From Pyxidicoccus trucidator (GTDB taxonomy: Bacteria > Myxococcota > Myxococcia > Myxococcales > Myxococcaceae), in NCBI RefSeq assembly GCF_010894435.1, contig NZ_JAAIXZ010000007.1, positions 281,339-345,338 on the forward strand: a DNA stretch of 64,000 nt, given 5' to 3'. The notes below the pieces were generated by a model. That model saw only the letters and a program-made list of their open reading frames with translations, did no database searches and was not told the DNA's origin. The position numbers and the translations under genes are program-made. How positions within the stretch are numbered: position 1 is the stretch's first letter; the number at the start of each line of letters is the position of its first letter. Shown here piece after piece: positions 13,584 through 16,446 of the stretch.

Positions 13584-13784
13584 CGGCGGCCGGGCGCGCG
13601 GCCCCCCGTCCTTTCGGCCGGGGGATGGAGCAAGTCCTTCCGGATTGTTCTTTCCCGAGGCCCCCGGGAGTGGTCCGCTCCCTCCAGGATGCGGCCCGCC
13701 ACGGGACGCCTCATCCCGGGACGGCGGCCAAGGGAAGGAATCCCTTGCCGGCCCCGGGCGGCTTCAACAGGATTCGCCTCCATC

Positions 13785-15473
<1,689 letters not shown>

Positions 15474-15498: not shown

Positions 15499-16005
15499 GT
15501 CACTTCCACTTGAGTGGAAGCAAGGGCCCCGGGGATGGCTTCCGTCCCTGGGGTCACTTCCACTTGAGTGGAAGCAGCGGGCCCGGCTGCCGCCCCGGGT
15601 CACTTCCACTTGAGTGGAAGCAAGACGCGAGAGGCAGACTGCCCTGGGGTCACTTCCACTTGAGTGGAAGCAGCCCTCCGGCTGCCGTCTCGGTCACTTC
15701 CACTTGAGTGGAAGCAGCCCTCCGGCTGCCGTCTCGGTCACTTCCACTTGAGTGGAAGCAGCCCTCCGGCTGCCGTCTCGGTCACTTCCACTTGAGTGGA
15801 AGCAAGCCTGCGGACGGCCCCCGTCGCTGGGCTCACTTCCACTTGAGTGGAAGCAGCTCTCCGTGTCTGAGAGTTTGGGTCCAGCTTCCACTCAAGTGGA
15901 AGCAACAGAGGCTGGGGCCCCGGTGGGTCACTTCCACTCAAGTGGAAGCAGCACCCCGATGCTGGCGCATGTCCCATGGAGTCACTTCCACTCAAGTGGA
16001 AGTGA
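15499..16005. repeat. Array of 11 palindromes, core CTTCCACT-(TG or CA)-AGTGGAAG
   Basis: Eleven 18-bp cores start at 15503, 15557, 15603, 15653, 15697, 15741, 15785, 15836, 15885, 15931 and 15985. All have identical 8-bp arms. The first eight have centre TG and the last three have centre CA. Most carry GTCA on the left and GCA on the right regardless of centre. The last copy extends to 11-bp arms with flanking TCA/TGA. Start-to-start spacing is 44-54 bp, about one hairpin per 48 bp. The segments after copies 4, 5 and 6 are identical, so three 44-bp units arose by tandem duplication; the other intervening segments differ. The array fills the gap between the 3' ends of glnS and a convergent small gene, like REP/BIME elements. 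Spacing is not a multiple of three, so it is not a coding repeat. Confidence 0.95.
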
Positions 16006-16011
16006 GTCCGG

Positions 16012-16218
16012 CTACGGCTCGGAGGGGAGCTTGCCGGCGCACGCTCCCTGGCCGACAGCCTTCGGCACAGGAGCCGCAGGCACCCGGCAGGCGGCATGGC
16101 CGAGGATGACGTCTCCATCGACGGTGCTCGTCGGCGTGGGCGTCCACCCCGCGGCGAGCCTCGCGTCCAGGAGTTCATCGGCCTTCGGTTGGTGGTCCCA
16201 CACGGAGACCGCGTTCAC
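16012..16218 (-). CDS. Hypothetical small protein (68 aa)
   Basis: Short frame with GTG start 9 bp after the stop of the upstream 72-aa gene, suggesting a two-gene unit. The first two thirds (NAVSVWDHQPKADELLDARL) have the G/C-rich third positions of real genes here. The last third is richer in Ala/Pro/Gly and less convincing. Not recognised; no membrane segment or signal. Its stop lies 9 bp from the edge of the palindrome array. It could be a decayed remnant. Confidence 0.45.
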   Translation of the reverse strand: MNAVSVWDHQPKADELLDARLAAGWTPTPTSTVDGDVILGHAACRVPAAPVPKAVGQGACAGKLPSEP

Positions 16219-16227
16219 CCCGCCCAG

Positions 16228-16446
16228 TCAGGTGGTGTCGAAGACGAGGTATCTCTCGCCTTCCCAGGGCACCACGACGTCATGGGTGAACTCGTCCTGC
16301 ACCACCACCTCGGCCACGTCGCGAGGCGGCGTATGCGCGAAGCCCCAGCGCACCACGTCCTGGAGGAGGGTGAGTGGCGCGAGCTCCCGCTCCAGCGCGG
16401 CGCGCAGGTCCGCGGGCAGTCGGGAGTGGTCAATCAGCGGCACCAT
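16228..16446 (-). CDS. Hypothetical small protein (72 aa)
   Basis: 72 aa, acidic, beginning MVPLIDHSRLPADLRAALER and ending GERYLVFDTT, with regular G/C-biased third positions. A GGAGG lies 11 nt before the ATG. Not recognised; the middle (VVQDEFTHDVVVPW) looks like beta strands, with a helical N-terminal half. No signal peptide or membrane segment. It reads toward the palindrome array, followed by the 68-aa frame, and is divergent from the next large gene. Confidence 0.6.
   Translation of the reverse strand: MVPLIDHSRLPADLRAALERELAPLTLLQDVVRWGFAHTPPRDVAEVVVQDEFTHDVVVPWEGERYLVFDTT

Follow-up and report, generated by a model that had tools for sequence, protein, structure and literature searches.

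Introduction

The sopC site of the F plasmid consists of twelve 43-bp repeats, each containing a 16-bp inverted repeat that is bound by a dimer (PMC9178275). ParT of the Streptomyces plasmid SCP2 is described as a ParB-like protein without a CTPase domain, in which short helices at the N terminus are followed by a DNA-binding domain in the middle and a dimerisation domain at the C terminus; its site is an 18-bp inverted repeat (PMC12260392). Here we describe a locus that recalls both systems: an array of eleven palindromes in Pyxidicoccus trucidator, within a 64,000-nucleotide stretch (contig NZ_JAAIXZ010000007.1, positions 281,339 to 345,338; hereafter the window). The same palindrome precedes an unannotated orphan gene on another contig, C29, whose product is probably the protein that docks on the array.

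In its anatomy the window array resembles sopC, with tandem repeats of similar length (44-54 bp) and one palindrome each; membership in known families is not claimed. SopB and P1 ParB are also the structures that reach the predicted DNA-binding domain of the orphan protein (weakly, Z 4.2-4.4, and with no sequence match). Unlike sopC, the present arrays are chromosomal, occur several to a genome and carry a palindrome sequence, or word, that varies among paralogues; the orphan protein, judged from its model and Pfam, has no CTPase domain, and its gene has no ParA-like motif in the neighbouring open reading frames (ORFs). ParT, compared by description only, agrees with the orphan protein in the predicted order of elements (the fold similarity is weak) but has a ParA partner, and the account cited describes it mainly from Actinomycetota and Cyanobacteriota and mentions no array families (PMC12260392). 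The ParB protein of the Myxococcus plasmid pMF1 is reported to repress its own operon and to bind iterons both near that operon and elsewhere on the plasmid (PMC3235114). Such autoregulation and dispersed sites parallel, again by description only, the behaviour proposed below for the orphan protein; pMF1 ParB differs in being plasmid-borne, in its association with ParA and ParC and in its iteron motif, AGATGTCT. KorB of plasmid RK2, a ParB relative, is said to serve silencing over distance (PMC11790492); it can be set beside the orphan protein by description, not by sequence, and differs from it as a CTP-dependent clamp acting on a plasmid. Lastly, the chromosomal parS site of M. xanthus is given as TGTTCCACGTGGAACG (PMC3899335). 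Myxococcus parS sites form clusters of palindromes, and the half-site GTTCCAC recurs in some units of a relative, G021; parS (GTTCCACGTGGAAC), however, has no central TYRA.

Results and Discussion

An array of eleven palindromes

The sequence CTTCCACTYRAGTGGAAG is present in eleven perfect copies between positions 15503 and 16002 of the window. Allowing up to three mismatches yields 22 matches, the same eleven sites read on both strands, whereas 100 dinucleotide shuffles yielded 0.02 on average. The units are spaced 54, 46, 50, 44, 44, 44, 51, 49, 46 and 54 bp apart, centre to centre. These figures confirm the regular array reported in an earlier note made from the letters of the window, including the switch of the central dinucleotide from TG (eight units) to CA (three units) and the way in which the array fills the gap between two convergent reading frames (Table 1). 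The upstream frame we take to be glnS, coding for glutaminyl-tRNA synthetase. From unit to unit the 18-bp core does not change, though most spacers do; one sequence fills three consecutive spacers, so that the recent local duplication of units suggested earlier is correct. The further claim that the flanks keep their orientation holds for most units (CAC to the left, GCA to the right) but fails on the left of unit 9, which has AGC, and on the right of unit 11, which has GTG. An assembly artefact is unlikely because G021, a genome of the same genus, has nine units in the same gap, with the same inner core and partly different arms.

Seventeen copies of the inner 12-bp core, CCACTYRAGTGG, are present in the 12.67-Mb genome of P. 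trucidator: eleven in the window and six in the array on contig C29, with no dispersed copy. Paired CACTYRAGTG was found in only one other of the 195 genomes of the phylum examined, namely G021, where 17 of 18 core copies lie within three arrays: nine units in the glnS gap, four at the place equivalent to that on C29 and four upstream of an ECF sigma factor gene. The core is thus neither restricted to the window nor absent from close strains. Across the 34 units of the two species, the base pairs at positions 2 to 8 from the centre outward are complementary in every unit, pair 9 in 32 and pair 10 in 16. The arms vary (CTTCC/GGAAG, CTCCC/GGGAG, GTTCC/GGAAC) with symmetry kept; the seventh pair, for instance, is T-A in 24 units and C-G in 10, a symmetrical change. 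The distance from the glnS match to an anchor in the small convergent gene is 49-61 bases in nine of the twelve genus genomes where the anchor could be found, which implies that an empty site exists; it reaches 623 bases in P. trucidator, 517 in G021 and 107 in G002, whose gap seems, by eye, to hold one decayed unit.

Perfect hairpin-forming palindromes at the 3' end of a gene, between convergent genes, are what one would expect of REP/BIME elements mobilised by a RAYT protein, or of serial terminators, working as RNA or DNA hairpins; both had been entertained for this array. We give such readings hardly any credence. The Y1 transposase is absent from all 27 genomes of the genus, as against its presence in 5 of 14 control genomes, and the 17 core copies are all clustered in two arrays where dispersal would be expected. 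Between positions 15300 and 16500 there is one weak terminator-like site, against an expectation of 0.5, and its place is within a spacer; no T-tract terminator falls on a palindrome. Moreover, related arrays lie upstream of genes (see below).

A chromosomal parS identity was likewise rejected, the window units having the central TYRA that GTTCCACGTGGAAC lacks, and the half-site resemblance was dropped. Perfect copies of GTTCCACGTGGAAC in this genome are found on contig C19, where fifteen of them cluster (G000:C19:197340-200336); similar clusters are present in G020 and G021. The C19 cluster is likely, from its sequence, to be the chromosomal parS cluster. In the wider genome collection the paired-core pattern marks 58 stretches (L037-L094), chiefly in Nostoc and other cyanobacteria and also in Intrasporangium and others. 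The cyanobacterial stretches hold many pairs of hairpins, AGTCCACTYRAGTGGACT, separated by about 31 bp; those of Intrasporangium hold the repeats TGTGGA..GGGGCCACTCGAGTGG. Since arms and flanks differ, we judge the similar cores of other phyla to be independent repeat families.

An orphan gene with the same palindrome at its promoter

The six-unit array on contig C29 lies directly upstream of the orphan gene, 177-370 bp before its start; the counterpart array in G021 likewise lies immediately ahead of the gene. The C29 and window arrays have a common 18-bp core, and their consensus sequences agree at 22 of 22 positions. The predicted C29 protein has 407 residues. A 98-residue query detected seven copies of the gene in five of the 27 genus genomes, all with palindromes upstream and with words that differ from copy to copy (Table 1). 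A profile built from these seven proteins gave 83 matches, fragments included, in 20 of the 195 phylum genomes, representing 8 of 90 genera. At most 15 candidates were scored per genome, so the 15 counted in G143 are a minimum. The family is strongly expanded in G143, G141 and G144 (L197-L236; at least 15, 13 and 11 matches, respectively), where some copies lie in tandem (L212) and several are near-identical.

No family model in Pfam or NCBIfam scores above its cut-off with these proteins, and the Pfam ParB domain is absent from the seven members scanned. PHROGs and a sequence search of the Protein Data Bank (PDB) returned matches only at E 0.24 or worse and E 0.21 or worse, respectively; one 217-residue member had no match among plasmids and phages at E up to 1. 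The open-access literature searched contained no description of the family or its arrays.

The association between gene and palindrome extends to the family at large. Among 71 distinct sequences, 70 have at least 200 bp of upstream DNA, and for 38 of these 70 the 600 bp upstream contain at least two units of a single palindrome. The same test was positive in 1 of 69 downstream stretches, in 0 of 210 shuffles and in 3 of 142 stretches upstream of neighbouring genes (some loci being entered twice), the word in these three being that of the family gene alongside. A looser test, for palindrome arms of at least 8 within 400 bp, was passed by 45 of 69 stretches upstream and by 5 of 70 downstream. 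Family copies are not independent in these counts, as G143 holds several near duplicates. A usable palindrome accompanies 46 of 68 aligned copies, and these 46 comprise 40 different 20-mers. The string [AG]C[TC][TC], most often ACTT, opens 23 of the 46, suggesting that an outer part of the palindrome may be common to the family and an inner part variable.

Palindrome similarity climbs with protein identity, from a mean of 7.4-8.7 positions of 20 below 55% identity to 19.1 of 20 above 85%. The alignment columns that track palindrome similarity were ranked, and the ranking is not confined to the recognition helix. The rise of palindrome similarity with protein identity bears on the idea that some other, unlinked dimeric regulator binds the arrays and controls the orphan gene, the orphan protein being merely a target. 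Arrays upstream of both the orphan gene and an ECF sigma gene would look like such a regulon, and the DNA binding of the orphan protein rests on weak fold hints (see below). Yet words vary between family copies, even within one genome, and follow the similarity of the family proteins; a single outside regulator would thus be insufficient and many co-diversifying regulators would be needed. We consider this explanation very improbable.

Predicted structure of the orphan protein

Two models were computed, the first from 7 aligned rows (mean pLDDT 70.5) and the second from 68 (mean pLDDT 85.5). The predicted elements are helices in residues 17-108, an insert of two strands and a helix in 121-152, and a helix-strand-strand-helix unit in 160-223, with a likely helix-turn-helix at residues 59-84. 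Residues 1-11 are disordered and the predicted DNA-binding helices start near residue 17, so that the model places nothing CTPase-like ahead of them. For the first model the top three structural rows were the Spo0J C-terminal domain (Z 4.6, 54 residues, rmsd 2.9) and, twice, P1 ParB with DNA (Z 4.4). Among the 50 rows for the second model, four extend to the N-terminal domain, and each of these is P1 ParB or SopB (rmsd 15.3, 5.7, 3.9 and 4.6). Rows for other folds, with similar Z, were left uninterpreted. The models and comparisons weakly hint that the orphan family has a DNA-binding domain like that of ParB or SopB and lacks a CTPase domain.

The seven genus proteins (L154-L160) have tails of 93-186 residues ending in a motif like GLGG(F/L)(L/F)RRMTGG; by eye, the other 64 tails listed do not have it.

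Remote arrays and the matching of words within a genome

A search of 12 genomes with a 22-mer pattern uncovered 14 remote places besides the arrays of family genes, 13 of them with at least two units at up to four mismatches. Single asymmetrical matches (G104 4752831, G104 10654591, G105 10903908, G107 C56 and G107 C304) were set aside as chance. Counting the C4 array of G021 and the window, remote arrays number 16. By crude gene calls they adjoin unrelated genes, among them those for OmpA-like, PhzF, fatty-acid desaturase, EamA, glutathione peroxidase, ECF sigma and glnS products, and at least 6 of the 16 lie in convergent gaps. Several places recur across species with different words, as beside PhzF in G033, G107 and G029. 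At the place between one gene and the ECF sigma gene (the sigma site), arrays are present in four of the five genomes with an orphan gene and in none of 21 others; the latter are genomes without the orphan gene in which the neighbour of the sigma site was found, several matches being partial. The threshold in this comparison was 16 of 20. G020 had no match to this neighbour. Two apparent units at the sigma site of G002 were not counted, being a different sequence that lies within coding DNA.

Within a genome, the word of a remote array agrees with that at the promoter of a family gene. At the sigma site the agreement is 22/22 in P. trucidator (with the C8 copy) and in G010, 21/22 in G023 and 18/22 in G021; at the glnS site it is 22/22 in P. 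trucidator (with the C29 copy) and 21/22 in G021. Thus, five of six comparisons give 21-22 positions of 22 and the sixth gives 18, with the qualification that units were sought at up to three mismatches to a named 16-mer, which favours the expected word. Between species, agreement is 10-19/22 at the sigma site and 18/22 at the glnS site. The sigma site carries the C8 word in P. trucidator and a C29/C5-like word in G021, suggesting that sites stay while words change.

Of the 31 listed matches to the gene beside the sigma site (MVETLTLYRPVG...), 6 contain a single in-frame stop (L261, L264, L265, L266, L275 and L276), and some genomes yielded the gene only in pieces; this gene seems to be in decay across parts of the genus.

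The main rival to a functional role for the remote arrays is that they are functionless copies of the promoter array, carried by conversion or transposition into intergenic places that tolerate them, with the promoter array alone at work. Copying would account for the within-genome word matches, local duplication is visible in the window, and the position of remote arrays beside unrelated genes, at least 6 of 16 in convergent gaps, fits such a process. Against this, remote sites keep their arrays across species though the word changes (four species at the sigma site, two at the glnS gap), spacers drift while palindromes remain intact, and a RAYT-type transposase is absent. We regard the copying explanation as unlikely.

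A proposed docking region for a ParB-like protein

The interpretation we prefer, and consider probable, is that the window array is a sopC-like multi-site docking region for the ParT-like orphan protein encoded on C29. From the arrays, their places, their association with the gene and the matching of words we infer that this protein binds the palindromes, dimerises and regulates its own gene. A putative dimer would sit on each palindrome, through a predicted ParB/SopB-like helix-turn-helix domain and with a predicted ParB-like C-terminal domain, no CTPase domain being involved, and the array would gather many dimers. At the promoter array the protein would act on its own gene, likely by autoregulation, while at remote arrays, such as that in the glnS gap, clusters of the protein would form. 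Each family member would have its own word, the promoter and remote arrays of a genome changing together. The binding array for a dimeric protein (nucleoid or partition) proposed among other options in the earlier note is thus the option favoured here, now with a candidate binder that has the same palindrome upstream and ParB-like fold hints; binding itself stays at the level of inference. As to output, we favour a silencing or locus-pairing nucleoprotein complex and hold DNA segregation to be less likely, since no neighbour resembling ParA came to light: the deviant Walker motif (K-G/A-G-x-G-K-T/S) is absent from the ORFs neighbouring the 71 loci, in flanks of about 1.5-3 kb with crude ORF calls. 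A cluster of related ORFs recurs at 25 family loci and seems, by eye, to join kinase and lipoprotein ORFs.

Several observations weigh against this interpretation. The structural similarity is weak (VIA Z 4.2-4.6, within the range of chance): one of the four ParB/SopB rows of the second model has an rmsd of 15.3, the Spo0J domain falls outside the top 50 for that model, the C-terminal domain ties among many folds, and Foldseek returned no match at E 0.001 or better for either model. The half-sites of two G021 units are asymmetrical at pair 9, and 32 of the 70 family genes have no repeated palindrome upstream at the threshold used. The glnS-gap array is present in two of the five orphan-gene genomes, G010 and G023 having the short gap, and G002 has the orphan gene without an array at the sigma site. 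The association of gene and array by presence and absence is weak and confounded by descent, the five genomes falling in one clade of seven in the glnS tree. Finally, the sigma-site word of G021 is closer to the C29 word of P. trucidator (20/22) than to its own C5 word (18/22).

A broader proposal, advanced tentatively as possible rather than probable, is that myxobacteria hold a multiplying set of ParB-like proteins without ParA or CTPase, each with its own palindromic word at its promoter and at a few fixed places. Together they would form an orthogonal system of addresses by which loci are marked, paired or silenced, the words being rewritten in concert when specificity changes or when a paralogue takes over a site. 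If true, this would add a DNA-binding family whose related paralogues supply dozens of natural protein-operator pairs, good material for asking how ParB-type proteins change specificity and how unlinked arrays are rewritten together. It would also place centromere-like arrays in chromosomal use without an adjacent partition motor; family proteins with docking words of their own could give bacteria a new means of labelling chromosomal places and controlling them.

Features of the window and an in-frame TGA in the small convergent gene

Table 1. Coordinates of features in the window, and palindromes upstream of other copies of the orphan gene
Feature	Position	Strand	Remarks
Whole palindrome array, 11 units	15499..16005	.	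Gap between glnS and convergent gene
Unit 1	15503..15520	+	TG centre
Unit 2	15557..15574	+	TG centre
Unit 3	15603..15620	+	TG centre
Unit 4	15653..15670	+	TG centre; starts identical-spacer run
Unit 5	15697..15714	+	TG centre
Unit 6	15741..15758	+	TG centre
Unit 7	15785..15802	+	TG centre
Unit 8	15836..15853	+	TG centre
Unit 9	15885..15902	-	CA centre on + strand; left flank AGC
Unit 10	15931..15948	-	CA centre on + strand
Unit 11	15985..16002	-	CA centre on + strand; right flank GTGA
glnS open frame	13689..15473	+	Stop codon 15471-15473, 30 bp before unit 1; true start may be further in
Small convergent gene	16012..16446	-	In-frame TGA; its stop codon 10 bp past unit 11
G023 copy			Upstream word CACTTCTGCACGTGCAGAAGTA, 7 units
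G010 copy			Upstream word CACTTCCGCACGTGCGGAAGTA, 4 units
Second P. trucidator copy, contig C8			Upstream word CACCTCTGCACGTGCAGAGGTA, 8 units
G002 copy			Two units upstream
G021 C19 copy			One intact unit upstream

The in-frame TGA of the small convergent gene lies at 16228-16230 (FDTT*LGGVNAVSVWD). An RNA fold of the region past it, where a SECIS-like hairpin would be expected, is no better than shuffles (z -0.46) and lends no support to such an element. The TGA is kept in all 15 genus genomes that show the motif, out of 27 looked at, with coding conserved on both sides, making it a candidate selenocysteine codon or site of programmed read-through.
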